DNA of 13,705 nt from Dehalococcoidia bacterium (GTDB taxonomy: Bacteria; Chloroflexota; Dehalococcoidia; UBA3495). Where the stretch lies: positions 1 to 13,705 of the forward strand of contig PCAH01000012.1 in NCBI GenBank assembly GCA_002730485.1, given 5' to 3'. The notes below the pieces were generated by a model. It saw nothing but the letters and a program-made list of their open reading frames with translations. It did not search any database and had not been told where the DNA came from. How positions within the stretch are numbered: the first letter of the stretch is position 1; each line of letters starts with the position of its first letter. This document shows, piece by piece, positions 1 through 13,705 of this stretch. Position numbers and translations under genes: made by a program.

Positions 1-1
1 A

Positions 2-3000
2 GATGAGATCTTTGTGATCAATGTCTCCAATACCAATAGAGCTCCCGAGCTCACAGCAATGCCCGCCGAAGGGGTTTTGGAGGGGGCCTCCATCACCCCT
101 CTCGATGCTAGTGACACCAGTGGTGGCGATACCGATTTAGATGGAACAAGTCTAGCCTATAGCTGTCGCTATGACACCACTGCCGATGGTGTGGTTTCGG
201 GTGGCACCGACTGCACCACTCTGACAGGTTTTTCTTTGAACACAACCACAGGAGCCATTACCTGGGCAGTGGATTACGCTGCCGCCCTAGGGGGATCTAC
301 CACTGCTTACGAGATGAATGTGATCGGCAGTGACGGCAGCCTTACGGATGGTGAAATCGTAGTGATTACTGTCTCCAATAACAATCGACCTCCTAGCATC
401 GATCCTGTATCAAATTTGGTTGCTAATGAAAACGCTGCCATGACCACCATCGACATAGCCGATGGTGGTGATGATCTGGATGTTGATGGGGATATTCTTT
501 CCTATAGTTGTGAATTTGACGCCACTGATAATGGGACGATGGATAGCCCAGCCGATTGCTCGACACTCTCTGGGGCCAGCTTTAACACCACCACAGGTGT
601 TCTTGATTATACGCCGTCTTACTCTGTCGCGTCTTCTGGCGGCACCGCTTTTCGCGAGTTTCATATCACCGCAAGCGATGCAACAGAGACTGTTGGTGTC
701 TATGTCACTATCACTGTAATCAATACGGATAGGCCTCCCGTGATCACTGATCCTGGTGACGCCTCCACCCCCAAACAGACCCCTTATACCATAAATGTGG
801 ATGATGCCAGCGGTGGCGATTCGGACATCGACGGGGACACCATTAGCTATTCTTGTTATTACGACCTCGTCACCGACGGTGCGGTAGCTCAGACCACACT
901 CTGCACCACCATCTCAGATGTGAACTTCGATACCAATACGGGAACTCTCACTTGGACCCCGGGGGTGGGGGCTACGGCCCAACCCTATGAGATGATGATC
1001 ACGGCCACCGCCAATAGCCTCAGTGATAACTTTGTGTATGAGCTTACCGTCACAGAGGTCTTAGGAGATCCGCTGCTGGCCACCATCTCTGATGTGAGTG
1101 AGCCCGAAGGCTCCGCCATTACCACAATCGATGCTGAGGATAGTTCCACAGGCGACACCACCGGTACGGGCCAGGTCATCACCTACACCTGCTACTACGA
1201 TCAGTCTGTAAGCGGGACGGTAGCTGTAGACTCTAATATGGAGTGTACGGATATCGCTGGCGTGTCCTTTACCGCCGGCACCGGTGTTCTTGACTGGACG
1301 CCAGGCTACAATGATGCTGGCATCTATGAGATCATGATTACAGGTACGGACCCGGATCCGGTCTCCGATACGGAAATATTTGTCCTCACAATAACCGACA
1401 CCAATCGCCCACCAGTGATAGCGCCTATCTCTGATGAAATAAGAGCCGAAGGGGCAGCCTTCACTCAAATCAATGCCGATGACACCTCGGGAGGTGATAC
1501 AGATGTGGATGGCGATACCATCACGTGGTCCTGTGTCTACGATAATACAGACGACGATACCGTAGTGGCCAGCACCCCCTGTACGGCAGCTGGCATGTCT
1601 TTTGATAAAAGCACTGGTGTTCTCGACTTTACACCCGGTTACACAGATGAAGGCACTTTCGAGATCAAGATCACCGCTGATGATGACCAATCAGGCACAG
1701 CATCTCTGATCTTTGACCTCATCGTCACTAATACGGATAGGCCTCCCGTCATCGCAGCTTTTACACCGGCCTCCCTAAATGAGAGTGATGGCTCCACTCA
1801 GATCGTCAATGCCAATGATACCTCAGGCGGGGACACCGATGTGGATGGCGATACCATCACTTGGTCCTGTCTTTGGGATCAGGTGCAAGATGATGCTGTT
1901 GTGGATACAGCGGGTGCCAACGACTGCGAAAACGCAGATATTCTCGGGGTGAGCTTTGTGGCAGCTACAGGTATTCTCACTTGGGACCCCGATTTTTCTT
2001 CAGATGGGATCTACGAATTTAAGATAACGGCTACAGCCGGTGGGTTAAGTGCCAGCGCCTATCAGGATGTGACCGTTACGGGTACTAACAGAGCTCCGGC
2101 TATGACAGCTATCGCTAACGATACCGTCATTGAAGGTGTGGCTCTCAACCCCACCATCAACGCTAATGATAGCAACACGGCAGGAGATACCGATATCGAT
2201 GGGGATACCCTGACTTATACCTGCCTCTACGATACCGTTGTGAGCGGTGATATCTCAGGTGGCCTTGCTTGCGGTTCTCTCAGTGGCCTTACCTTTACGG
2301 ATAGTACGGGAGTTTTCGACTGGACACCCACCTTCACTCAAGCGGGTGTCTATGAGTTCGAGATCAAAGCCGATGATGGGTCTCTAACAGACAGTGATGT
2401 CTTTACCATAACCGTCAGTAACTCCAACCAGCCTCCCGCAGCGGCCACCATAGCAGATGGCAATGCCTACGAGGAGACCCTTGTGAGCATCGATGGTAAC
2501 GATAGCAACACCGGTAATGATACAGACCAAGATGGCACGGCTCTCACCTGGTCTTGTATCTATGATAATACAAGCAATGGGAATATCACGGGTACAACCA
2601 ATTGTACTGACCTTGGCGGGCTAAGCTTCACCGCTAGCACAGGCGTGATGAATTGGACACCATCGGCTACCTTGACTCGGACCCATACTATATTCGAATT
2701 TCAGTTCTCAGCTTCCGATGGCAGCACCTCTGCTTCGGAAATTTTCGTGCTTACCCTGGCCGATAATATCAATCCTGCCCCACCAACGGGAGTGACGGTT
2801 CCGACTACTCAGGCAGGGGGCACCCTCACCGTTACTTATTCGGATTCTACAGACTCTAACTTTGACACTCACGAACTCCAGCTCTGTGCAGCAAACGACT
2901 GCACCACCACTTGCTCCAACGCCACCACAGACGCCTCATCCACTTCGGATATCACCGGCATTGCCACCGGCACCTACTGGGCCTGTGTCAGAGGCCGTGA

Positions 3001-6000
3001 CTTGAGCACCAACTACTCCGCATGGGTACCATCAGCGGCCTCTGTGATCGTGGATTCGGTGGATCCTACCGTTGGCGGTGGGGGCACCCTGGGGATCACA
3101 GAATCTTATTACTATACCACCACCATAGGCTGGACCAAGGCCTCTGATGATCGCACTGTGGAAGCCAACCTTCGGTATGATATCTACCAGTCCAGCTCGG
3201 CAGCCTTCGACACCATCGCCGAGGTGGAGGCCGGTGCAGCCGTCGCTACCGATCAGACAGATATGAATACCTATACAGTAACCCCTCTTGAGCCTGATAC
3301 GGTCTACTACTTCAATGTCATCGTCAAGGACGAGATCGGTAACAAGTCAGTCTACAACAAGGTCCAAGTACACACCGAACACCTAAACCGCATCTCTGCA
3401 GGCCGTCAACGTACCTGTGCCATCAACGACACGGGTAAGCTCTACTGCTGGGGTAACGGCGGCTACGGTATGGGCGATGGAGCATCAACGAGCTCCGTTA
3501 TACCCATCCTTATCGAAAACGGAATGACCACCAAGACGTTTAAGTCAGCAGGAGCTGCCTATCGCTATGGCTGTGCTCTCACTACAGATGGTGAGATCTA
3601 TTGCTGGGGCTACGGCGCTAATGGTGGTATGGGTATTGGCACCACCGCCAATACCAACCTGACTCCCACCGTTGTTAACACTAGCCTTACCTGGCGTTAT
3701 CTCACTACCAATAAAGATTGGAATGCCCAAAACTGGTCCTGCGGCATCACCACGGCAGGAGCGGGCTATTGCTGGGGCTATAATGGTTCTGGAGGCATAG
3801 GAAATAACGACAATTCCAACGTCACCACGCCCACTGCCATTGATGGCACCCACGATTGGCGCTACCTCAATGCGGGCGGTAAGCATGCCTGTGGTGTCAC
3901 CACAGCCGGAGTAGGGTACTGCTGGGGCGAGAATGATAACAGACAGTTGGGTGTGGCTGATGACACTACCGATAGATGGGTGCCGACACCGGTTTTAGGT
4001 GGTCTGACCTGGAGAATCATCTATGCCGGCCTTCAAAATTCCTGCGGCCTCACCACTGCTGGAGCGGCCTATTGCTGGGGTGACGACACCGATGGCCAGA
4101 TCGGCAATGGTGCCACGACTACCGCTGATCAGTACACCCCTCAAGCAGTGAATGGCAGCCATGTGTTCCGAGAACTATCCGTGGGTAGCATTAACATCGT
4201 CTGTGGTGTGACCACCGACGATGACCTCTACTGTTGGGGGAAAAACAATTCCAGTCAGCTAGGTGATGGCGGTACCACTGATGCCACAGAACCTCAATTT
4301 GTGATGGGCGACATTGATACGGTTGACTCCGGTGAACACTATAGCTGTGCTATCAAGAATAACGGTAACGCCTACTGCTGGGGAGACGATGCCACCTACG
4401 GTGCACTAGGCCTAGGATACGCGGGCAATGCGGGGTACCCGTCCATAGTGGCCTCCAGCGAGCGTTGGCTCAAGAACCAAGTGAGTGATCCTCAGATTAT
4501 CCAACAGGACCGCAAGCTCGTCCTATCATGGGCCGTACCCACCGATGCCACAGGTGTCACCGTGCTTCGCCACACCTCAGAGGTAACAGACACCCCTGTA
4601 GACGGCACCACTTATGTGGCGACAAACACCATTGGTGCCGCCACTGTGGTTTATGTAGGCTCAGGCACCACAGTGACCGACACTTCTCTCACCAATAACA
4701 CCAACTACTACTATGCTATCCACAGCTATGATTCCAATACCATCTATAGTAAGCCCACCAAGATGTTCGGTGCGCCCGCTTATGACGAGAATAAGGAGCG
4801 CATAGGCTTAGGCCAGTACCATGGTTGTGCTATCGACTCTAATGGTGCACCCTACTGCTGGGGAGAAGGCTCCCTAGGCCCCATAGGCAACGCTTCCACC
4901 ACTGACCAATTGGCCCCCACGGCTGTGAGCGTGTCGGGTATCACCAACTCTCAGGTCTTTACCCATATCACCACCGGCGATGGGCATTCCTGCGGTATCA
5001 CCGCTGATAACGAAGCCTGGTGTTGGGGTTTTAATAATAGGGGCCAGCTGGGAGATAACACCACCGCCAACCGTACCTCTCCTGTGCAAGTGCCCGGTGC
5101 ATGGCGCTCCATCTCTGCTAGTGGTGTGCCGTTGGCCGATAATTATAGGTATGCCACCACCTGTGCCATTGATACCACGGGAGATCTCTACTGCTGGGGT
5201 TACAACGGCTATGGTGCGGTAGGAATCGGTGCCACCACCACCACGAGGACGCCCACCTCTCCTGTCAGGGGGGGACGAAAATGGAAGCAAGTGGATGTGG
5301 GAGCCGTTCATGTTTGTGGTGTCACCACAGAAGGAGATGGCTTTTGCTGGGGTAGGAATAACCGTAGCCATCTTGGTGACGGTACAACCACCAGTAGATA
5401 TGCCCCTCGGTCCGTTGATGCCACCAAGAAATGGAAGGCCATCAACGCCGGCCTTTATGGTAGCTGTGGTATCACAGATGATAACAAGACCTACTGCTGG
5501 GGTGATAACACCAGCTACGGTGCCTTGGGTCTCGGCGATGTGGCCGATCGCACCACCCCCACAGAACTGACAGGCTACACCTTCCGCCGGATCCAAGGGG
5601 GAATGTCCTTTCGTTGCGGCATCACCACAGATGATGACCTGTATTGCTGGGGACGTAACGACTACGGCTCCCTAGGTAACGACCAGGCCCCTACTCACTC
5701 AACCTCTCCATCCTTTGTGGCCTCAGATGTCTTTCAGGTCACCACCGGCGATCTATCTGCCTGTTATGTCAGGAACGACGGCAAGGGCTATTGCTGGGGT
5801 CACTCTTCATCGGCGGGCTATGTCCTTGGCCTTGGCTATGCGGAAGACGCGGTGGATCTACCCCATGCTATCTTCGGCCATAAGAGCTGGCGTTACAAGC
5901 AGCCGGATGACTTGTTCATCCTGCCCAAGGAACAGGGCCTCGATCTCAGCTGGGTTGGGCCTACGGGTGCAACGGGTTACATCGTCTTACGCCATACCTC

Positions 6001-9000
6001 GCCCTTTAATGTTGAGCCCGTGGACGGCACAACTTATGTGGCGACGAATACCATCGGTGCCGCCACCGTGGTCTATGTGGGAGCTACGGCGAGCTACTCT
6101 GATGCAGGCCTCACAGACGACACTCCATACTACTACCAGGTCTTCGCCTATGACGGTGCAACCGACTACCACAACCCTGCCACTTCCATGGGTATCTCTG
6201 GTCTCCAGGAGTGCACTCGTATCAGTCTTGGCACCAACAATGGCTGCGCCCTCACAGACGAGAACAAGCCCTATTGCTGGGGAGACTCTGCCAACGGAGC
6301 CTTGGGTAACAACGACACATCCACCGACTACGCCTCTCCCACGCCAGTCACCACCACGGATACCTTTCGCGAGATTCAGGCCCATGAACGCTATGCTTGC
6401 GCCGTCAATTTCGATAATGAGGGCTACTGCTGGGGTAACAATGGCCAAGGTAATCTCGGTGTGGGAGATACCACCCAAAGAGAGGTTCCTACCCTGGTCG
6501 ATGGTAGCCAGTCATGGCGCACTATCAAGCTGGGTAACCACTGGACTACTACTGGTAAATGGAAAAACTCCTGCGGTCTTAACACGGATCATGAGGCCTA
6601 CTGCTGGGGGCGAGGCAACTATGGTACCTTAGGAAATAACACCCTCACCATCAACCAATCGACCCCCGTTGCTGTTGTCAGTGACCTAAAATTTGTTCAG
6701 CTCGAAGTGGGTTCTCTGTCGGCCTGTGGTATCACCACAGATCATGATGCCTACTGCTGGGGTTACAATAATAATTCACTACTAGGCTTGGGCCATGCGG
6801 GACTTGTTCAAGTACCTTCATTGGTCTCTGGCAACAAGAAGTGGCGCAAGATCACTATTGGCAAGGACCACACTTGCGCCATTGATCTGAACTACGATGC
6901 CTACTGTTGGGGGGACGCTGCCGACGGATCCTTGGGGACCGGTGACACTGTTGATAAGACTATGCCCACGGCTGTCCTTGGTGGGTTGAGCTTTCGTGAT
7001 ATCGATGCTGGCAATAATAACACCTGCGCTATCACGACGACTGACGTGTTGCACTGCTGGGGTGAGAATAACCACTACGAGACGGGCCTTACGGGTGATA
7101 CCACCGACTACGACGAGCCCCAGTTGGTCATGACAGGAGTCGCCCAGGTCAACCTCGACCGCAACGGCGCCTGCGCCATCAAAACCGACGGCACCGGCTG
7201 GTGCTGGGGCGAGAACGAAACCCTCAAGCTCGGTGTGGGCGCTGCCCTTAATGCGAATATCATGAGCCCCACCCAGATTGCAGGCTTCGACTTTTCCGTC
7301 AAATCCATCATGGCGGATATAGTGGGTGAGCCTACATCGACCACGCCCGGCACCACCGTCATGGATATCACCATCTCAGGTCCCGATGTGACCCACTATC
7401 AATACGTCATCGGCGAGGGGGCCGTGGATTGTAGTGCGGCTAGCTATAGCTCAGAGATCGCCGTGGGCACCAAGATCACCGATGATATCGAGGCCCTCGC
7501 CACGGGTACCATCACCCTCTGTGTCAAGGTCAAAACCACCGCAGGCACCTGGCAGACATCGGCCGATGCCTACAGTGTGAGCTGGACGAAGGATACTGTG
7601 CCTACAGGTTTCGAGCCCCTGCCGGGATTCACCGCCGAGGGTATTCCTCTGAGTTGGACTGACGGTGATTCTGGTGGCAGCTCTGGATTCATCGTCTACC
7701 GCCAAGACACGGGCAATGGTGATATCACCTGGGTGCCTACAGACACAACGGTCTATACCACCGCCACGGATATCACCGGCAATACCGGTGCTGATAGCAG
7801 CTCCAAAATCGTCTATGTAGGATCAGGCACCTCCGCCACCGATCTTTCAAGTCTGGTGGATAACAAGACCTATATGTACAAGATCTTCAGCTACAATTCC
7901 GACACGGAGTACAGTTCAGGTATCCAGCGAATCTCCCGCACCTACCCCTACCAGACCATCGCTGTGGGCAACAACGCCAGCTGCGCCACCAGGTTTGGCA
8001 AGATGCGCTGCTGGGGCGATAATTTCGCCACAGGAAACCTCGGCTACGATGCCGATGCCACCAAGGATATCGGGGATGATGAGCATCCCTACACCAAAGG
8101 TGATATCAATGTAGGCAAGGATGTGCTCATGTCTAGCCTTTCCTTCCGCAATACAGACAACGTACAGGCCGTGTGCGCTCTTACTATTGAGGGTAAGGTG
8201 CGGTGCTGGGGCTCAGGCAATGTAGGAGCCCTTGGCAACAATAGCACCTCAGATATCACTCCTAGCTCATTTCCTCCACCAGATCTTGCCTTTACTTCGG
8301 CAACGGTCATTAAAATTGATCTTGGTGTGTCCCACGGCTGTGCACTGCTCAATACAGGAGCTGTTCGCTGTTGGGGGGCTGGTGCCAATGGAGCGCTCGG
8401 TACAGATGCCACGGCAAACTTGGGTGATGGATCTGGGGAGATTGAGGCTCTTACAGATATTAATGTGGGGGCCACGGTCATTGATGTTAGTGCAGCTAAT
8501 ACGACTACCTGTGTTGTCACAACAGGCCATAGAGGCAGGTGCTGGGGCCTCAATAGCTATGGCTCATTGGGGCGGGATAACACCACGTCAGTCGGTAATG
8601 ACACTAGCCCAGGTATGGCTGGCTTAACGGATATCGCTATCGGTGCCGATGATCCTAAAGTCGTCAAGATTGTCACCAATAACCAATATGGCGCCACCTG
8701 CGCCCAAACTGAGGCCGGTGGCCTCAGATGCTGGGGGTATAACGGGAATGGCAGGTTAGGAGCCGGCATCGCCATTACCCTTAATATCGGTGCTGGTGGA
8801 GTACAAGGTATGACCTCTGTCACGGATGTGGATCTCGAAGCTCCGGCTGATACAGTGGATTCCGCAGATCTGGTGGTAACGGATTTCTCAGTAGCGCAGT
8901 TCTTCTGTGTCCTGAATAGCGCCGGCCAGGTGAAGTGCGTGGGAAACAACGACCTCGGTGTGCTAGGGCTTGGCAATACCACAGCTACCAATACAGGCAC

Positions 9001-12000
9001 AGGAGCTGACTACTCTTGGATGGACTTCGGCAGCAAAGTGGTGGCTCTAGCTTCGGGCGCTTATGATACCTCAGATACTCATACCTGTGCCCTGACAGAG
9101 TCTGGGGAGATATACTGCTGGGGTGGCGGTACGGGCGGTGCTTTGGGTTATTCCAATACGGACAATATTGGTGATAACGAACTCCCCACTGATTTGCCTC
9201 CAGTCTCTGTCTGGGGACCGGCTCAGACCTCTCCTGATACCGTCAGGCCAAGCAATCTGATTGCCTGGTACGATGCTGCCGATATTTCCACCCTCCATGA
9301 GAACGCTGGTTGTAGCGATACGGCAGAGGATGGGGATACGGTCCTCTGCTGGCAGGACAAGACGTCGGGATTAAAGCATCTGAACACAACAGGTCTCACT
9401 GGCCCGTCCGTTGATTATGATGGCCAGCATGGGCTGCCAACGCTGACTTTCGATGGCTCTGAAAACCTTTGTATCGCTTCCTTCGGCGGCCTAAGCGGAG
9501 CCCAGGAGTATACCATTTTTATGGTTATGGAATGGGAAGAAAGTACAGCAAGTATGGTGGCCTTTGAATATGGGACTTCTGGTAGCGGTACACAGATCAG
9601 GCTTGATATAAACCAATCCAACAATCATATCCGACATTCGAACCAAAACAGTACCTGGAACGTCGATTACCCAGGCTGGGAGGACTACACCAATGAAATG
9701 AACCTAATCCGGTTCCGTCACTCCGCAGCAAATAACAGCACGGGCTCCAAAAGGCTTGCCTTCAACGGTTACATGATTCCAACGGCAGATTCCACCGCTG
9801 ATGGCAGTGGGGCTCTCAATCTCACCGCTAATGTGGAAGTTTGTCTAGGGGCTCAAACAGATGACACCGTTGGGATGCTCGGACAAATCGCCGAGGTCAT
9901 CATCTATGACTCCAATCTGAACGGCCAAGAAGCGATTATGATCGAGAACTACCTCAAAGCCAAGTGGCAGAAGGGTCTGGATGGCATGAGCACCACAGGC
10001 CTTCATGGCCACTACGACCCAATGAAAGCCGAGAGCCTCACCACCGATGTCTGCGCCACCGGCCAGGCTATAGCCACAGACGGCTCGAGCATCCAATGCT
10101 GGCAAGATCGCTCGCCCATGCAGAACCATATGCAGCAGATCACCAGTGGCAATAGACCGGTGTTGGAAACCACTTCAGCCAACCTGAATTCTAAACGGGT
10201 CGTAAGTCACACTGATGATTTCTTTACCCGCTCCTACATGGATGGTTTTACAGGCCCTCTCGATCGTTACAGCTCGAATGTCACCTTTGTCTCGAGTGAT
10301 GTAAGCACCAGCAACAGTCTCTGGTCCATGGGTCTAGCCGCTGCAAATGCACGATTTGACATGCAGATCGCAGCCACTTCGGAACTTAAGACTGGTGGGC
10401 AAGCTGCCTATGCTGAATTTGATACTCTCTCTGTATCCACACCCTATTTCATAGCTTCCACATTGGAAGCCGATGGCTCAAAGTCCCTCTTCCAAGAGGG
10501 GATCGCCCAAACCACCGGAACGGATAATACAGAGGTCATCACTTTGGGTGACTATAAGGGCGCTATTGGCGCCAACGTCGATGGGGGTGCGGATTTTAGT
10601 GGTGAATTCGGGGATGTTCTTATCTACGACAGACCGCTGAATCAGTTTGAGATGACGGAGAACACCATGCTGAGCATGAAGAAATACGGTGCTACGAATG
10701 ACTATGCCAAAGCCCCAGGCGGAGTCCATCATGGTCTTGTGCTGTGGCTGGATGCGGACGATGGCACCACCGTCAGCACAGCGGCCTGTACGGCCACTGT
10801 AGCTGCACCAAGTGATACCAACCCCATTACTTGCTGGAAGGATAAGTCGGGAAAGGCCAACCACGTGTCTTCAGATGCGGGATCGCCTACCTATCAGGCG
10901 GATGAGTTCAATACCAAACCTGTGATCCGATTCACCGGCACTCAGAACATGTCTCTCTCAGATCTAACAGGCATGAACGGAAGCAACGAATCATTCACAG
11001 TCTTTGCTGTGGCAAACCGCTCTCAGACCACAAGCGCCACCAGTGTGCTTTCCTTTGGAGACAACGAGACGAGTGATAAAGAACGATGGGCTATGCGAAT
11101 AACGGCCAACGGTAGATATGGTAGCTATTTTAGAAACGGCACCGTCAGCATAGACAACGCACAGATTGTTGAATCGGCAAACAAGCATGCGGTCATTACT
11201 ATGAGTTACGATGGTGGGGGGGTGAATGAGCCAACTGCTGCAATGATATACGAAAATGGCGCCTCTATATCCGAAAAGACCGGAGGCGGAGCGGCCTCTG
11301 GCGACGCAGCCATTGCCACAACACCGATGCTGCACATAGGCTCCCAGCCAGACAATACGGACCTTCACGGCGGAGACATCGCCGAGGTGATCATCTATAC
11401 CAGACTCCTCTCCGCCGCTGAACGCCAGCAGGTGGAAGCTTACCTTGCAAACAAGTGGATGGAAGAGCCTTACTATACCGATTGCATTGACGCTGAGAAC
11501 AGCGGTGAGACAGCCGGTACCTTCACCATTGACACCGATGGTTACAACGGCCCTAGGCCGCCGTTTGACGTCACCTGTAACTTCTCAACAGACGCCAACC
11601 TCGCAGCCTGGTGGAAGCTGGATGAAACCACCGGATCCTCTGCCGCCGAGAGCGCCGGCTCTAATACTGGCACTCTGGCAGGGGGAACCTTGGTGGCTCA
11701 GGCAGGCCGCCACGGTGGTAGTATGGCATTCGATGGCACAGACGATGTGATCACTACCTCCTATGCTGGTATCACGGGACCGAGCGACCGCAGTATCTCA
11801 GCATGGATCAAGCCTTCGGGCAGCGGCACCTGGCGCACCATCGTCTCCTGGGGGAATGTCGCTGTTAATGGCAATAAATTCGACTTTCAACTCGATAGCA
11901 GTGATCGACTCTATCTGGGTGCCTACGGCCGCTGGCAGATTGGGACGACGGCACTTCAAGATGACAGGTGGTACCATGTGGCCTTGACTTTCGCCAGTGA

Positions 12001-12235
12001 TGGCACACCTGATACGAGTGAAGTGAAACTCTATGTGAATGGAGTCGAAGAATCCTATGATGGAGCCAGTGTCGCTGGTTCCTTCTGGACCCAGCCCGCC
12101 GGCACGGTAACCATTGGAAACTTCCCTTTAGGGGGGAGTTCCTTCTTTAATGGCAACATCGATGATGTGCGTATTTACAATGACGAGCTTTCGGCTGCCG
12201 AGGTCTTGGAGCTTTATAAGCAGGGTGAGCGGTAA
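2..12235 (+). CDS. Giant modular secreted/surface protein, 5'-partial (Ig-like x8, FN3, RCC1 propellers x4, LamG x4)
   Basis: One uninterrupted frame of over 4,070 codons ends at TAA 12233-12235. The first possible start, GTG at 14, is not the real one: in-frame codons before it read D-E-I-F, completing the strand motif that ends each Ig-like repeat (compare DTEIFVLTI in repeat 4). The gene therefore begins outside the window. From GTG as residue 1, domains are: eight Ig/cadherin-like repeats 9-919; FN3-like 920-1123; RCC1 blocks 1124-1491, 1596-1965, 2069-2435 and 2647-3072, separated by FN3-like modules; three LamG-like modules 3073-3820; a fibrinogen-like Cys-bounded linker 3824-3855; a LamG domain 3858-4073. 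Cysteines occur almost entirely in regularly spaced pairs, which fits disulfides in the periplasm or outside the cell. No membrane segment, LPXTG or other sorting tail is visible at the C-terminus. Likely role is a surface adhesin or stalk (inference); no catalytic residues were recognised. Domain families are confident, function is not. Confidence 0.93.
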   Translation, partial: DEIFVINVSNTNRAPELTAMPAEGVLEGASITPLDASDTSGGDTDLDGTSLAYSCRYDTTADGVVSGGTDCTTLTGFSLNTTTGAITWAVDYAAALGGSTTAYEMNVIGSDGSLTDGEIVVITVSNNNRPPSIDPVSNLVANENAAMTTIDIADGGDDLDVDGDILSYSCEFDATDNGTMDSPADCSTLSGASFNTTTGVLDYTPSYSVASSGGTAFREFHITASDATETVGVYVTITVINTDRPPVITDPGDASTPKQTPYTINVDDASGGDSDIDGDTISYSCYYDLVTDGAVAQTTLCTTISDVNFDTNTGTLTWTPGVGATAQPYEMMITATANSLSDNFVYELTVTEVLGDPLLATISDVSEPEGSAITTIDAEDSSTGDTTGTGQVITYTCYYDQSVSGTVAVDSNMECTDIAGVSFTAGTGVLDWTPGYNDAGIYEIMITGTDPDPVSDTEIFVLTITDTNRPPVIAPISDEIRAEGAAFTQINADDTSGGDTDVDGDTITWSCVYDNTDDDTVVASTPCTAAGMSFDKSTGVLDFTPGYTDEGTFEIKITADDDQSGTASLIFDLIVTNTDRPPVIAAFTPASLNESDGSTQIVNANDTSGGDTDVDGDTITWSCLWDQVQDDAVVDTAGANDCENADILGVSFVAATGILTWDPDFSSDGIYEFKITATAGGLSASAYQDVTVTGTNRAPAMTAIANDTVIEGVALNPTINANDSNTAGDTDIDGDTLTYTCLYDTVVSGDISGGLACGSLSGLTFTDSTGVFDWTPTFTQAGVYEFEIKADDGSLTDSDVFTITVSNSNQPPAAATIADGNAYEETLVSIDGNDSNTGNDTDQDGTALTWSCIYDNTSNGNITGTTNCTDLGGLSFTASTGVMNWTPSATLTRTHTIFEFQFSASDGSTSASEIFVLTLADNINPAPPTGVTVPTTQAGGTLTVTYSDSTDSNFDTHELQLCAANDCTTTCSNATTDASSTSDITGIATGTYWACVRGRDLSTNYSAWVPSAASVIVDSVDPTVGGGGTLGITESYYYTTTIGWTKASDDRTVEANLRYDIYQSSSAAFDTIAEVEAGAAVATDQTDMNTYTVTPLEPDTVYYFNVIVKDEIGNKSVYNKVQVHTEHLNRISAGRQRTCAINDTGKLYCWGNGGYGMGDGASTSSVIPILIENGMTTKTFKSAGAAYRYGCALTTDGEIYCWGYGANGGMGIGTTANTNLTPTVVNTSLTWRYLTTNKDWNAQNWSCGITTAGAGYCWGYNGSGGIGNNDNSNVTTPTAIDGTHDWRYLNAGGKHACGVTTAGVGYCWGENDNRQLGVADDTTDRWVPTPVLGGLTWRIIYAGLQNSCGLTTAGAAYCWGDDTDGQIGNGATTTADQYTPQAVNGSHVFRELSVGSINIVCGVTTDDDLYCWGKNNSSQLGDGGTTDATEPQFVMGDIDTVDSGEHYSCAIKNNGNAYCWGDDATYGALGLGYAGNAGYPSIVASSERWLKNQVSDPQIIQQDRKLVLSWAVPTDATGVTVLRHTSEVTDTPVDGTTYVATNTIGAATVVYVGSGTTVTDTSLTNNTNYYYAIHSYDSNTIYSKPTKMFGAPAYDENKERIGLGQYHGCAIDSNGAPYCWGEGSLGPIGNASTTDQLAPTAVSVSGITNSQVFTHITTGDGHSCGITADNEAWCWGFNNRGQLGDNTTANRTSPVQVPGAWRSISASGVPLADNYRYATTCAIDTTGDLYCWGYNGYGAVGIGATTTTRTPTSPVRGGRKWKQVDVGAVHVCGVTTEGDGFCWGRNNRSHLGDGTTTSRYAPRSVDATKKWKAINAGLYGSCGITDDNKTYCWGDNTSYGALGLGDVADRTTPTELTGYTFRRIQGGMSFRCGITTDDDLYCWGRNDYGSLGNDQAPTHSTSPSFVASDVFQVTTGDLSACYVRNDGKGYCWGHSSSAGYVLGLGYAEDAVDLPHAIFGHKSWRYKQPDDLFILPKEQGLDLSWVGPTGATGYIVLRHTSPFNVEPVDGTTYVATNTIGAATVVYVGATASYSDAGLTDDTPYYYQVFAYDGATDYHNPATSMGISGLQECTRISLGTNNGCALTDENKPYCWGDSANGALGNNDTSTDYASPTPVTTTDTFREIQAHERYACAVNFDNEGYCWGNNGQGNLGVGDTTQREVPTLVDGSQSWRTIKLGNHWTTTGKWKNSCGLNTDHEAYCWGRGNYGTLGNNTLTINQSTPVAVVSDLKFVQLEVGSLSACGITTDHDAYCWGYNNNSLLGLGHAGLVQVPSLVSGNKKWRKITIGKDHTCAIDLNYDAYCWGDAADGSLGTGDTVDKTMPTAVLGGLSFRDIDAGNNNTCAITTTDVLHCWGENNHYETGLTGDTTDYDEPQLVMTGVAQVNLDRNGACAIKTDGTGWCWGENETLKLGVGAALNANIMSPTQIAGFDFSVKSIMADIVGEPTSTTPGTTVMDITISGPDVTHYQYVIGEGAVDCSAASYSSEIAVGTKITDDIEALATGTITLCVKVKTTAGTWQTSADAYSVSWTKDTVPTGFEPLPGFTAEGIPLSWTDGDSGGSSGFIVYRQDTGNGDITWVPTDTTVYTTATDITGNTGADSSSKIVYVGSGTSATDLSSLVDNKTYMYKIFSYNSDTEYSSGIQRISRTYPYQTIAVGNNASCATRFGKMRCWGDNFATGNLGYDADATKDIGDDEHPYTKGDINVGKDVLMSSLSFRNTDNVQAVCALTIEGKVRCWGSGNVGALGNNSTSDITPSSFPPPDLAFTSATVIKIDLGVSHGCALLNTGAVRCWGAGANGALGTDATANLGDGSGEIEALTDINVGATVIDVSAANTTTCVVTTGHRGRCWGLNSYGSLGRDNTTSVGNDTSPGMAGLTDIAIGADDPKVVKIVTNNQYGATCAQTEAGGLRCWGYNGNGRLGAGIAITLNIGAGGVQGMTSVTDVDLEAPADTVDSADLVVTDFSVAQFFCVLNSAGQVKCVGNNDLGVLGLGNTTATNTGTGADYSWMDFGSKVVALASGAYDTSDTHTCALTESGEIYCWGGGTGGALGYSNTDNIGDNELPTDLPPVSVWGPAQTSPDTVRPSNLIAWYDAADISTLHENAGCSDTAEDGDTVLCWQDKTSGLKHLNTTGLTGPSVDYDGQHGLPTLTFDGSENLCIASFGGLSGAQEYTIFMVMEWEESTASMVAFEYGTSGSGTQIRLDINQSNNHIRHSNQNSTWNVDYPGWEDYTNEMNLIRFRHSAANNSTGSKRLAFNGYMIPTADSTADGSGALNLTANVEVCLGAQTDDTVGMLGQIAEVIIYDSNLNGQEAIMIENYLKAKWQKGLDGMSTTGLHGHYDPMKAESLTTDVCATGQAIATDGSSIQCWQDRSPMQNHMQQITSGNRPVLETTSANLNSKRVVSHTDDFFTRSYMDGFTGPLDRYSSNVTFVSSDVSTSNSLWSMGLAAANARFDMQIAATSELKTGGQAAYAEFDTLSVSTPYFIASTLEADGSKSLFQEGIAQTTGTDNTEVITLGDYKGAIGANVDGGADFSGEFGDVLIYDRPLNQFEMTENTMLSMKKYGATNDYAKAPGGVHHGLVLWLDADDGTTVSTAACTATVAAPSDTNPITCWKDKSGKANHVSSDAGSPTYQADEFNTKPVIRFTGTQNMSLSDLTGMNGSNESFTVFAVANRSQTTSATSVLSFGDNETSDKERWAMRITANGRYGSYFRNGTVSIDNAQIVESANKHAVITMSYDGGGVNEPTAAMIYENGASISEKTGGGAASGDAAIATTPMLHIGSQPDNTDLHGGDIAEVIIYTRLLSAAERQQVEAYLANKWMEEPYYTDCIDAENSGETAGTFTIDTDGYNGPRPPFDVTCNFSTDANLAAWWKLDETTGSSAAESAGSNTGTLAGGTLVAQAGRHGGSMAFDGTDDVITTSYAGITGPSDRSISAWIKPSGSGTWRTIVSWGNVAVNGNKFDFQLDSSDRLYLGAYGRWQIGTTALQDDRWYHVALTFASDGTPDTSEVKLYVNGVEESYDGASVAGSFWTQPAGTVTIGNFPLGGSSFFNGNIDDVRIYNDELSAAEVLELYKQGER
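38..2770 (+). repeat. Eight tandem Ig/cadherin-like (He_PIG-type) repeats
   Basis: Repeats begin at residues 9, 125, 240, 352, 465, 576, 693 and 806 and run 111-117 residues. Most start with N-R-[PA]-P after a short linker and end in a V/I/L-T-[IV] strand, the usual layout of bacterial cadherin-like or putative-Ig repeats. Before the first Cys, seven repeats have an acidic calcium-type motif (for example GGDTDVDGD); repeat 4 has lost the acidic residues (STGDTTGTGQ). Each repeat has one Cys pair, C-x-[YFW]-D...C, with 15 residues between the cysteines in six repeats, 17 in repeat 4 and 18 in repeat 6. A motif [TS]G-[VAIT]-[LIMF]-x-[WY] follows in every copy. Calcium stiffening and disulfide formation are inferred from the motifs. 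Another repeat probably lies upstream, because the frame enters the window at the end of one. Confidence 0.85.
1502..1860 (+). repeat. Near-identical DNA in Ig-like repeats 5 and 6
   Basis: The 23 bases at 1502-1524 recur exactly at 1838-1860, covering the calcium-type motif and the start of the next strand. In addition, 20 identical bases occur at 722-741 and 1730-1749, at the boundaries opening repeats 3 and 6. These identities point to fairly recent exchange or duplication among repeats. Confidence 0.8.
2771..3382 (+). other. Two FN3-like modules linking the Ig-like repeats to RCC1 block A
   Basis: Residues 920-1017 begin NPAPPTGV and contain ...YSDSTDSNFDTHELQLC..., GTYWACVRGRD and N-YSAW, the pattern of an FN3-like beta sandwich. 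This module has four cysteines. Residues about 1018-1123 follow with GWTKASDD, LRYDIYQS, PLEPDTVYYFNVIVKDEIGNKS, which is a clear FN3 core (the L-x-P-x-T-x-Y-x-F/Y-x-V strand E-F motif). They act as spacers between the repeat stalk and the first propeller. Exact boundaries are approximate. Confidence 0.7.
3383..4486 (+). repeat. RCC1 block A: seven repeats, one predicted beta-propeller
   Basis: Residues 1124-1491 contain seven units of the RCC1/alpha-tubulin-suppressor type. Each has the pattern [WF]-[RK]-x-[ILS]-x-x-G...C-[AG]-[ILV]-x(7)-C-W-G...[LIM]-G. The pair of cysteines is separated by nine residues in all seven units (first pair C1135/C1145). Seven units match the seven blades of the RCC1 fold, so the block can close as one propeller. 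Unit 3 is longer before its first Cys: W to C is 16 residues instead of 11 (Cys at residue 1243). The last unit ends in YGALGLGYAG and a long tail leading to the next FN3 module. RCC1 propellers in bacteria are usually protein-binding; the partner here is unknown. Confidence 0.88.
4487..4798 (+). other. FN3-like module between RCC1 blocks A and B
   Basis: Residues 1492-1595 carry KLVLSWAVPTDATGVTVLRH, a VDGTTY stretch, VVYVG and NYYYAIHSYDSN, an FN3-type pattern common in bacterial secreted proteins. It shares 22 consecutive identical residues (codons 4595-4660) with the module at 5909-6217, so it is a recent relative of that module. It serves as spacer between propellers. Confidence 0.72.
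4799..5908 (+). repeat. RCC1 block B: seven repeats, second predicted beta-propeller
   Basis: Residues 1596-1965 hold seven RCC1 units, each with C-x(9)-C-W-G. Starts read RIGLG, THITTG, WRSIS, WKQVDVG, WKAINAG, FRRIQGG and FQVTTG. Unit 3 again has the long segment before its first Cys (W at nt 5102 to Cys at nt 5162, 20 residues instead of 11), exactly as in blocks A and C. Unit 7 ends LGLGYAED, matching the end of block A. The order of unit types therefore follows block A, showing that whole propellers, not single blades, were duplicated. Confidence 0.88.
5909..6217 (+). other. FN3-like module between RCC1 blocks B and C
   Basis: Residues 1966-2068 contain GLDLSWVGPTGATGYIVLRH, the shared VDGTTY...VVYVG stretch (nt 6017-6082) and PYYYQVFAYDGA, an FN3-type core. 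It ends in a single Cys (LQEC), one of the few cysteines in the protein without an obvious partner. It is a paralogue of the module at 4487-4798. Confidence 0.72.
6218..7318 (+). repeat. RCC1 block C: seven repeats, third predicted beta-propeller
   Basis: Residues 2069-2435 hold seven RCC1 units, all with C-x(9)-C-W-G. Starts read RISLG, FREIQ, WRTIKLG, FVQLEVG, WRKITIG, FRDIDAG and VAQVN. Unit 3 has the long pre-Cys segment (W at nt 6515 to Cys at nt 6572, 19 residues), as in A and B. Unit 6 has HCWG and unit 7 WCWG in place of the usual YCWG. The block start lies 1,419 nt after that of block B, and B lies 1,410 nt after the matching residue of A. Confidence 0.88.
7319..7951 (+). other. Two FN3-like modules between RCC1 blocks C and D
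   Basis: Residues 2436-2530 form a beta-sandwich-like module with one Cys pair (VDCSAA and ITLCVKV), similar in style to the four-Cys module at 920-1017. Residues 2531-2646 are FN3-like, with GIPLSWTDGDSGGSSGFIVYR, KIVYVGSGTSATDL and KTYMYKIFSYNSDTEYSSG, related to the linkers before blocks B and C but with a longer insert. The extra module makes the C-to-D spacing longer than A-to-B or B-to-C. Confidence 0.65.
7952..9229 (+). repeat. RCC1 block D: seven divergent, longer repeats, fourth predicted beta-propeller
   Basis: Residues 2647-3072 hold seven RCC1 units averaging about 61 residues, against about 52 in blocks A-C. Units 1-5 read RCWG where A-C usually read YCWG. Unit 6 reads KCVG, losing the Trp, and unit 7 reads YCWG. 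The Cys pair has nine residues between in six units and eight in unit 1 (C-A-T-R-F-G-K-M-R-C). Several units carry extra N-[IVT]-G and D-I-x-[VI]-G segments. The block is a different RCC1 lineage from A-C, not a fourth copy of the same duplication. The count is still seven, so a closed propeller remains likely. Confidence 0.85.
9230..11470 (+). repeat. Three related LamG/concanavalin-like modules
   Basis: Residues 3073-3324, 3325-3572 and 3573-about 3820 share one layout. Each starts with a G/N-L-[IVH]-x-[WH]-[YL]-D-[AP] strand, then a Cys pair whose second Cys lies in C-W-[QK]-D-[KR], then a sandwich body, and ends with I-[AG]-[ED]-V-[IL]-I-Y-[DT] and a helix (for example IENYLKAKW or VEAYLANKW). 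This is the pattern of LamG-like/jelly-roll domains of bacterial secreted proteins that often bind sugars or proteins. Module 2 is the most diverged (YDPMKAES at the start, GDVLIYDRPLNQFE at the end). Module 1 has two further cysteines (ENLC, VEVC). Ligands cannot be read from the sequence. Confidence 0.78.
11471..11587 (+). other. Cys-bounded linker resembling the start of a fibrinogen-C-type domain
   Basis: Residues C3824 to C3855 enclose SGETAGTFTIDTDGYNGPR followed by P-F-D-V-T-C. This matches the opening of fibrinogen-C-related domains (D-C...SG-x-Y-x-I-D-x-D-G...P-F-x-V-x-C-D-M). After the second Cys the sequence switches directly to a LamG domain, without the usual T-x-D-G-G-G-W-T. It appears to be a retained half-motif used as a disulfide-closed linker. 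Family match is from memory of the motif and is moderate. Confidence 0.55.
11585..12235 (+). other. C-terminal LamG (LamG_3-type) domain
   Basis: Residues 3858-4073 contain LAAWWKLDETTG, GGSMAFDGTDDVI, RSISAWIKPSGSG, DDRWYHVALTF, EVKLYVNG and the ending IDDVRIYNDELSAAEVLELY. This is a textbook concanavalin A-like/LamG_3 sandwich. It has no cysteines, unlike the three preceding modules, and it closes the protein with only a short QGER tail. No sorting signal or membrane anchor follows. Confidence 0.9.
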
Positions 12236-12301
12236 CCACACCCAGGCCGCCGAGGACAGTACTGAATGGCACTACCTTAAGGAGTAGCATATTGTGGTTA
12301 C
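12232..12301. repeat. 9-bp perfect inverted repeat spanning the stop codon and the downstream gap
   Basis: GTAACCACA at 12232-12240 and its exact complement TGTGGTTAC at 12293-12301 flank about 52 bases that themselves contain the near-palindrome CTACCTTAAGGAGTAG (12272-12287). The left arm includes the stop codon of the giant gene. No T tract follows, so it is not called a terminator. Confidence 0.45.
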
Positions 12302-12390
12302 TAAGCTTCGAAAGCTTTGTGGTACATGAAATTCTTCGCTTCGCTTCGCTCAGCGGGTTACCTCTGAGATCTTACCTTAAAGTACCGTCC
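12254..12390. mobile_element. Possible small REP/MITE-like element with imperfect terminal inverted repeats
   Basis: GGACAGTACT at 12254-12263 and AGTACCGTCC at 12381-12390 are inverted copies matching at 9 of 10 positions. Between them lie a 6-bp hairpin with a 3-base loop (AAGCTT-CGA-AAGCTT, 12303-12317) and three CTTCG units in tandem (12334-12348). No transposase is encoded. The right end read on the - strand (GGGGACGGTACTTTAAGG) resembles ends of REP-like elements mobilised by IS200-type single-domain transposases; this resemblance is from memory. No target duplication was found, so the call is tentative. Confidence 0.3.
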
Positions 12391-12407
12391 CCATTGACTA
12401 AGGAAGA

Positions 12408-13565
12408 CTATATTTTTTCTAGTGTTTTGAGCTCCTTTAATAGGCAATAAATATTTGTAATAGTTAGTTTTTTACCTAAATCATAGGGCTCTGCAACCAA
12501 AGATAGAACATAGCAATGATTAGGCTTAACTGTATCTATGGCACTAAAATTATTCTTTGTCAGCTGGGGTGCCTTTGAGCATTTCACCTCAATAGCGATG
12601 GTAATATCTCTGAGCTGTAGGATAAGATCCAACTCCTCACCCTTAGCAGATCGATAGTAAGAAAAGTTCCATTTGCTACTAATATTATTCAAAACATGCT
12701 CGATGGCGAAACCTTCAAAAGAGGCCACATAAATCGGGTTTCCCTGCAATTGATCAAAGGTTTCAATACCCAACATGCAATGTACGAGGCCAGAATATCT
12801 AATATATACTTTAGGAGACTTCACTAACCTCTTCTTTAAGTTAGCATGCCATGGTTCTAGAAATCGAAGCATAAAAGTGTCTTCCATCAGTTCTAAAAAG
12901 CTTTTAATCGTTGGCCCAGTGCTATCTAAACTACCTGCTAATTTTGCTCAATTTAGGGTCTGACCTCGTAGATGTGAAAGCATAGTCCAAAATCGTCTCA
13001 TTTGACTTGCGGAGCGTCTATATCCAAATAGAGCCAAATCCCTTTCTAAAAAGGTTTTGATATAGGCCTCTCTCCATTCAAAACTAAATTCCTCATCTAC
13101 TAAAAAACTATCTGGATATCCTCCCTTTAGCCATAATTCGTATAGTTTATCCTCACCGACTTCTTCTATAGAAAATGGAGCTAGTTCGATATATTTAATT
13201 CTTCCGGCTAGTGTTTCTGAGCTTTGTTTTAGGAGGTTTGGAGAGGCAGAGCCTAAAATCAGAAATTGACCTTTTCTTTCGGCATCATCGACCAATGTTC
13301 TTAAAACTGGAAACAATTCTGGACTGAACTGAATTTCATCGATACATATCATTTTATCTTTATGCATGGATAGAAAGGTCTCTGGATCGGAAAGTTTTCT
13401 AAGATCGGAAGGACGCTCTAAATCCAAACTTATATCTTTTAAAGAAAGCATTTTTTAAGCTAGAGTTGATTTCCCCACCTGCCTGAGGCCAATTATGGCA
13501 ATGACTTTAAATATCTTAAGGCTGGTTTCAATCTCACCAACACAAGAGCGGCTGATATATGTCAT
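12408..13565 (-). pseudogene. AAA ATPase/DUF4143 family gene, broken by two in-frame stops
   Basis: Read from ATG 13565-13563 (start YISRS, as usual in the family), the frame runs 385 residue positions to TAG 12410-12408, a normal length. It is interrupted by TAA at codon 37 (13457-13455), just after Walker A, and by TGA at codon 206 (12950-12948). Reading through both restores the family pattern without any frameshift: Walker A GLRQVGKST (26-34); LDLERPSDL (47-55); Walker B MICIDEIQ with D76/E77; LGSAS (104-108); LKGGYPDSF; then DUF4143 with RLVKSPKVYIR-SG and F-E-G-F-A-I-E. A PD-(D/E)XK-like set follows (E289, D313, E326-V-K328). Family members are ATPases often found as mobile or toxin-antitoxin-like accessory genes, of uncertain function. 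The giant frame has no in-frame TGA or TAA, so recoding of these codons is unlikely. The gene is AT-rich compared with its neighbour, suggesting transfer. The three fragments could be separately translated, but the first holds only Walker A. Confidence 0.88.
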
Positions 13566-13587
13566 AATCACATACCTGCCGTGATTA

Positions 13588-13620
13588 GTGCAAATTAAAA
13601 GACTGTCTTTATAATTGCAC
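13588..13620. promoter_or_regulatory. 15-bp imperfect dyad upstream of the DUF4143 ATPase pseudogene
   Basis: Bases 13588-13602 and 13606-13620 are inverted copies matching at 12 of 15 positions around a 3-base centre. The dyad lies 22 bases upstream of the proposed start at 13565. It could be an operator or a leader hairpin. A smaller inverted pair (AATCAC 13566-13571, GTGATT 13581-13586) sits between it and the start. On the - strand an AGG about nine bases before the ATG is a weak ribosome-binding site. No convincing -35/-10 pair could be picked. Confidence 0.4.
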
Positions 13621-13705
13621 TTTTCATAGTCCCCTACCGCCAGTTCGTCGTCACATTCCCCCACCCTATGCGTTACTGGCTAAATACCAACAAACAGCTA
13701 TTCTC

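Follow-up and report, generated by a model that had tools for sequence, protein, structure and literature searches.

In the available portion of a survey of highly repetitive beta-propellers (PMC9218822), the RCC1/BLIP-II group ranks third, contributing 10% of the set with mostly bacterial members, and the blade counts of WD40 propellers peak at 7 and 14. The nearest described case we encountered is a minor pilin carrying one hepta-bladed RCC1 domain (available portion of PMC12206443), and Bdellovibrio sequences annotated as RTX toxin are described in the available portion of PMC5941755 as carrying an RCC1 repeat and no toxin domain. Among the matches listed from the full-text literature, none was a multi-propeller RCC1 surface protein to which a role had been assigned. 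The current study concerns a giant gene of this kind from a Dehalococcoidia bacterium (GenBank assembly GCA_002730485.1, contig PCAH01000012.1, positions 1 to 13,705), with the whole 13,705-nucleotide stretch hereafter termed the window. The open reading frame (ORF) occupies positions 2..12235 of the plus strand, as do all features of the giant gene given below, and comprises 4077 codons; it is open at its 5' end at the window edge, with the true start outside the window. Within it, RCC1 units are arranged as four consecutive blocks of seven. The multi-propeller RCC1 pattern is already known, and the window adds one further example, in which the 4 x 7 layout is neat and conserved. What is established directly here is the order of the domains, the count of four times seven units and the models of two propellers; the reading best supported by the sequence is that of a surface-tethered arm that would serve in adhesion or in capturing a ligand.

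Four blocks of seven RCC1 units

The ORF contains 28 copies of the cysteine signature C-x(8,9)-C-[WV]-G, which the gaps divide 7+7+7+7, with the first cysteines of the blocks at residues 1139-1449, 1609-1921, 2082-2391 and 2661-3029 (window positions 3416-9086) and the 28 units together spanning residues 1126-3066 of the 4077. Unit 22 (C-x8-C) and unit 27 (C-V-G) are the exceptions in motif. Shuffling the protein sequence 500 times gave an average of 0.028 motifs per shuffle, with a maximum of 1. When a hidden Markov model (HMM) derived from the 28 units was run against the protein they came from, it returned exactly 28 units at 36-65 bits, a result that is circular by itself; a broader HMM, for which 400 units were drawn from the window and its relatives, again gave 7,7,7,7. 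Pfam provides independent support, as the RCC1-like domain PF25390 scored 688 bits (cut-off 150), PF00415 scored 349 bits (cut-off 21.7) and PF13540 scored 324 bits over 27 stretches (cut-off 22). The first-pass annotation of this DNA had counted 28 units as 7, 7, 7 and 7 and had placed the blocks on the window; both the count and the coordinates were right according to the motif and both HMMs, with the Pfam RCC1 matches in agreement, and the HMM scan it had proposed as a check likewise returned 7,7,7,7. It is extremely improbable that assembly produced the count of 28 by collapsing or duplicating repeats: the units are only ~28-39% identical on average, Tandem Repeats Finder detected no tandem DNA repeats in the window, and the relative P0001, described below, is also 7,7,7,7. 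The lack of repetition at the DNA level indicates instead that the units have diverged. Within a block, unit identity averages 30-32%, and the window protein falls outside the survey set mentioned above because that set, as described in the available portion, admitted only propellers whose median blade identity exceeded 60%.

The four blocks correspond to propeller 1 at 3377..4453, propeller 2 at 4787..5872, propeller 3 at 6206..7282 and propeller 4 at 7943..9199, all of which are delimited by motif and HMM. Blocks 1 and 2 were rendered by AlphaFold2 as two separate propellers at a mean predicted local distance difference test (pLDDT) score of 81.7, and each matches solved RCC1-fold structures, closure being judged from the strand order and the near-full-length structure matches of the predicted model. 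The sequence of block 3 shows homology to that of block 1 (41% identity, versus 38% to block 2), and block comparison supports the delimitation of both block 3 and block 4. The assignment of block 4 as a propeller is supported by its sequence and by a low-confidence model, in which it aligns with UVR8 over nearly its full length. The block-wise structure prediction that had been suggested as a check thus yielded two propellers for blocks 1 and 2, with blocks 3 and 4 predicted at low confidence only (mean pLDDT 48.5 for the model holding both). Taken in this graded manner, from models for blocks 1 and 2, identity for block 3 and the low-confidence UVR8 alignment for block 4, the proposal of four seven-bladed propellers on one chain holds up. 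No blades are shared across linker 1-2, the sole linker whose model is good enough to judge this. Both the sequence and the predicted fold make the blocks RCC1-like domains (RLDs): with UVR8, RCC1 and the HERC RLDs of Pfam PF25390/PF00415 they share a repeat scoring above cut-off and seven repeats per domain, whereas the paired cysteines in every unit and the arrangement of propellers in series, joined to immunoglobulin-like (Ig-like), FN3-like and LamG-like domains, distinguish the window protein from these.

The spacers had been described as FN3-like, a claim that survives in part. An FN3 domain at 3089..3370, just before propeller 1, reaches the PF00041 cut-off (25.1 bits versus 25, in a scan of window positions 2726-3385), and linker 1-2 (4475..4783) exhibits several strands in the model, albeit at low confidence. 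The linkers themselves are either below cut-off or unmatched, as linker 1-2 has no fn3 match and its other Pfam match is below cut-off, linker 2-3 (5894..6202) scores 16.2 bits against fn3, and linker 3-4 (7304..7939) has no Pfam match. Linkers 1-2 and 2-3 are 103 residues each; linker 3-4, at ~212 residues, is twice as long and by its length would accommodate about two domains. Overall, the FN3-like character of the linkers is confined to their length and strand content.

Origin of the array and whole sevens among relatives

When blades are compared among blocks 1-3, the mean identity is 0.389 at the same position versus 0.310-0.344 at other offsets, and none of 20,000 permutations reached as high a value. 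It is therefore probable that the propeller was duplicated whole. The linkers probably travelled with the propellers, since linkers 1-2 and 2-3 are 52% identical. Block 4 is a different subtype judging from both its low identity to blocks 1-3 (30-32% only) and its wider unit spacing (55-69 residues). Propellers 1-3 would accordingly derive from duplication of a whole propeller-plus-linker module, with propeller 4 standing apart as a different subtype. Gain and loss may also naturally proceed by whole propellers, since a partial set of blades presumably would not close the ring.

The closest relative among the matches listed is P0001 (3793 amino acids, ENA), which is 48% identical over 99% of residues 1030-3080 and likewise contains 7+7+7+7 units with the broader HMM as well as related linkers. 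The two proteins exhibit block-by-block orthology: each block of the window is nearest to the block of the same rank in P0001 (0.50, 0.52, 0.47 and 0.45 for blocks 1 to 4), compared with 0.27-0.40 for non-matching blocks. Hence the 4 x 7 layout is older than their split. Outside of the array, P0001 has a shorter part after propeller 4 than the window protein does.

Strict sevens in a protein of this size had been considered unusual by the first-pass annotation. We reject this claim, as they are common among relatives. Our set of long relatives consists of 120 proteins listed of 273, picked by likeness to the window and by length. With the broader HMM, multiples of 7 account for 321 of its 443 blocks; 79 of the 120 proteins have only multiple-of-7 blocks and 41 have at least one other block, 35 have three or more blocks of exactly 7 each, and 14 are exactly 4 x 7. 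The narrower HMM, which divides runs or misses units in many relatives, finds multiples of 7 in 291 of 529 blocks, a total that includes the window, and assigns exactly 4 x 7 to 12 of the 120 proteins. Block counts thus vary with the HMM (blocks were cut at 90 residues for the narrower and 85 for the broader), and the peak at 7 is seen with both. A two-propeller query matched 4614 proteins at E <= 0.001, with only multiples of 7 in 93 of the 120 listed, and a propeller-4 query matched 3593 at the same threshold, with only multiples of 7 in 102 of the 120 listed (broader HMM in both cases). Among 24 fetched loci, some of whose frames are cut by the locus ends, 18 of the 27 frames with at least 5 units have multiple-of-7 blocks only. 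As these sets were chosen by similarity and length, they indicate commonness among relatives rather than frequency in nature. Proteins that their source names "alpha-tubulin suppressor-like RCC1 family protein" similarly carry tandem RCC1 blocks, mostly of seven, within long multidomain chains; in contrast to the window protein, they are accompanied by a wide variety of domains, and uninterrupted runs of 14-84 units occur in some of them. P0002, P0004, P0005, P0006, P0007 and P0010 have 56-84 units in one run, with totals that are multiples of 7 by the broader HMM; the narrower HMM breaks up some of these runs. With its thousands of relatives, the window protein may serve as a clean example of how bacteria lengthen their surface proteins by whole propellers.

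The variation among relatives could also be viewed as the outcome of neutral drift, in which frequent repeat recombination sets the copy number and order of the blocks and the protein, with no specific ligand, provides only a bulky surface coat. Block number and companion domains do differ widely among relatives, the 41 long relatives with irregular blocks fit such a process, and BLAST finds no match between the window protein before residue 910 and the N-terminal part of P0001 in the same register. We nevertheless consider this explanation rather unlikely, given that whole sevens dominate the blocks of the long relatives, that the four blocks are positionally orthologous at 45-52% identity between the window and P0001, and that an enlarged loop recurs at one blade in all 12 of the propellers chosen for the comparison described below.

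Paired cysteines, the blade-3 loop and a probable role at the cell surface

Another conserved characteristic of these units is the joint presence of their two cysteines. We aligned 7215 units from 361 proteins, of which 7134 have letters at both columns (81 were dropped). Both cysteines occur in 5975 units, one in 14 and none in 1145 (phi 0.993), such that 7120 of 7134 units have either both or neither, with the caveat that the HMMs used for this comparison were derived mainly from cysteine-bearing units and that the units are related rather than independent events. In the 7 proteins with at least 3 units of each kind, the corresponding counts are 310, 1, 1 and 75 (phi 0.984). All 28 units of the window have both cysteines, and the strand list of the model places the two cysteines of a unit on successive strands. 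Since single cysteines are almost absent, one disulfide per blade is the simplest reading for cysteine-bearing units and is consistent with an extracytoplasmic protein. Each blade would then be stapled by its own disulfide, rendering the discs rigid outside the cell.

Four close relatives with complete-looking starts exhibit a cysteine after an N-terminal hydrophobic stretch, as judged by eye without a predictor. Such an arrangement resembles the lipobox of lipoproteins. These signal-like N-termini, together with the paired cysteines of every unit, which suit an oxidising, extracytoplasmic place, and a length of over 4000 residues that includes Ig-like and LamG-like domains, argue against the idea of an injected effector acting on the host Ran GTPase. 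Legionella RCC1-repeat effectors do exist (available portion of PMC7157520), yet the paired cysteines and the architecture make this explanation very unlikely for the window protein.

We instead favor, at a probability of about 0.62, a giant secreted and probably outer-membrane-anchored lipoprotein, in which a stalk of ~8 Ig-like domains, four independent RCC1-fold propellers separated by FN3-like domains, and four LamG-like domains form a multivalent adhesin or ligand-capture arm. The tethering is suggested by the lipoprotein-like starts of the relatives and by the Ig-, FN3- and LamG-like domains. According to this scheme, the propeller faces, most notably the blade-3 loop of propellers 1-3, and the LamG-like domains may bind a surface polymer or protein. 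The extracellular "beads on a string" envisaged by the first-pass annotation would be plausible under the same scheme. Several observations weigh against it. Firstly, the arrangement of the discs is not fixed by the model of blocks 1 and 2 (predicted template modelling score, pTM, 0.49), and the model holding propellers 3 and 4 has the low confidence noted above. Secondly, fn3 matches are weak or absent in the linkers, for single blades of blocks 1-3 the best match in another of these blocks holds the equivalent position in just 9 of 21 comparisons (chance ~3), and the composition of the HMMs tempers the cysteine counts. Thirdly, a loose lipobox pattern is present in only 19 of the 111 M-starting proteins of the long set, and export and lipidation rest on relatives because the N-terminus lies outside the window. 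A related but different function would be that of a secreted protein-protein binder or inhibitor aimed at the enzymes of competitors rather than at adhesion. BLIP-II (1jtd), which in the available portion of PMC9218822 is likewise a secreted bacterial propeller of the RCC1/BLIP-II group, offers a precedent; we regard this alternative as unlikely.

As for where a tethered arm of this kind could contact a ligand, the enlarged blade-3 loop of propellers 1-3 (3704..3736, 5114..5158 and 6527..6568, delimited by the aromatic-to-cysteine distance) is a candidate binding site. Blade 3 measures 16-20 residues between the conserved aromatic and the first cysteine in 12 of 12 chosen propellers, compared with 11-12 residues in nearly all measurable blades 2, 4, 5 and 6 of the same propellers. 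These 12 were hand-picked (three from the window, three from P0001, two each from P0031 and P0128, and one each from P0125 and P0126) and represent all propeller 1-3-type seven-unit blocks of the window and of five relatives that are 43-54% identical; the 12 include a four-unit block of P0128 and the third block of P0001, in which the pattern recovers six of seven units, and block-4-type propellers, the P0015 and P0114 blocks and short fragments were excluded. Blades 2 and 5 of window propeller 1 gave 11 each in one measurement, and none and a misplaced 22 in the other. The loop is no general feature of RCC1 blocks: among other seven-unit blocks, blade 3 reaches at least 14 residues in 10 of 88 measurable cases (190 of 278 were not measurable), much like other blades, a longer step from blade 2 to 3 by cysteine spacing occurs in 22 of 276, and block-4-type propellers are without the enlarged loop. 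A tentative extension, which we hold to be possible rather than probable, is that propellers 1-3 are near-equivalent discs, each presenting one enlarged blade-3 loop, with residues that differ from disc to disc, on a frame stapled by a disulfide in every blade, with propeller 4 and the LamG-like domains providing a second specificity. If so, the protein would act as a multivalent grapnel in which each site is free to change by itself and the rigid frame of four discs is maintained.

Flanking domains, distant matches and neighbouring DNA

Upstream of the propellers, the region 2..2701 contains eight regular cysteine pairs at residues 55/71, 170/186, 285/301, 397/415, 511/527, 623/642, 741/757 and 852/868, with 15-18 residues within a pair and the pairs 111-118 residues apart. 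This spacing suggests about eight Ig-like domains of the He_PIG type with one cysteine pair each, of which Pfam (PF05345) reports only six stretches. Downstream of propeller 4, the region 9200..12232 comprises four LamG-like (Laminin_G_3) stretches by Pfam, and the ORF ends just past the last of these. P0114 combines a propeller-4-type block with a similar C-terminal part, at 38% identity over window residues 2537-3859.

P0241 (462 amino acids), which is 83% identical to propeller 4, was considered as a free-standing propeller and rejected, as it looks like a fragment of a frame-broken copy from a close relative: its first ~40 residues resemble window DNA in another frame and its last ~25 depart. 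The starts or ends of P0125, P0126, P0128, P0242 and P0267 also look cut or mid-domain.

A genome contig scan returned 16 loci, with best segments 21-34% identical. Phage and plasmid records gave 12 and 60 matches, respectively, all at <60% identity, and a viral contig search, which covered close relatives only, gave no match. The Synechococcus phages BUCT-ZZ01 and S-SRM01 (records H1-H3) contain propeller-like stretches of 26-30% identity at 7-14 places per record. In the phylum of G002, a Bdellovibrionaceae bacterium whose genome contains locus L002, propeller 4 has matches at E <= 1e-15 in 113 of 368 genomes, with a top identity among the matches listed of 48%, over a short stretch. Putative giant RCC1 genes recur in this phylum; frames of ~3900-5800 residues with propeller-4-like matches are found in its genomes G070, G043, G087 and G046.

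Beyond the giant gene, an AAA_14/DUF4143 ATPase-type gene on the minus strand is divided between two ORFs (Pfam matches to AAA_14 at 12948-13451 and to DUF4143 at 12408-12887) and looks broken. The GC content near this gene is 0.38 at 12501-13500, compared with ~0.51-0.57 in the giant gene.

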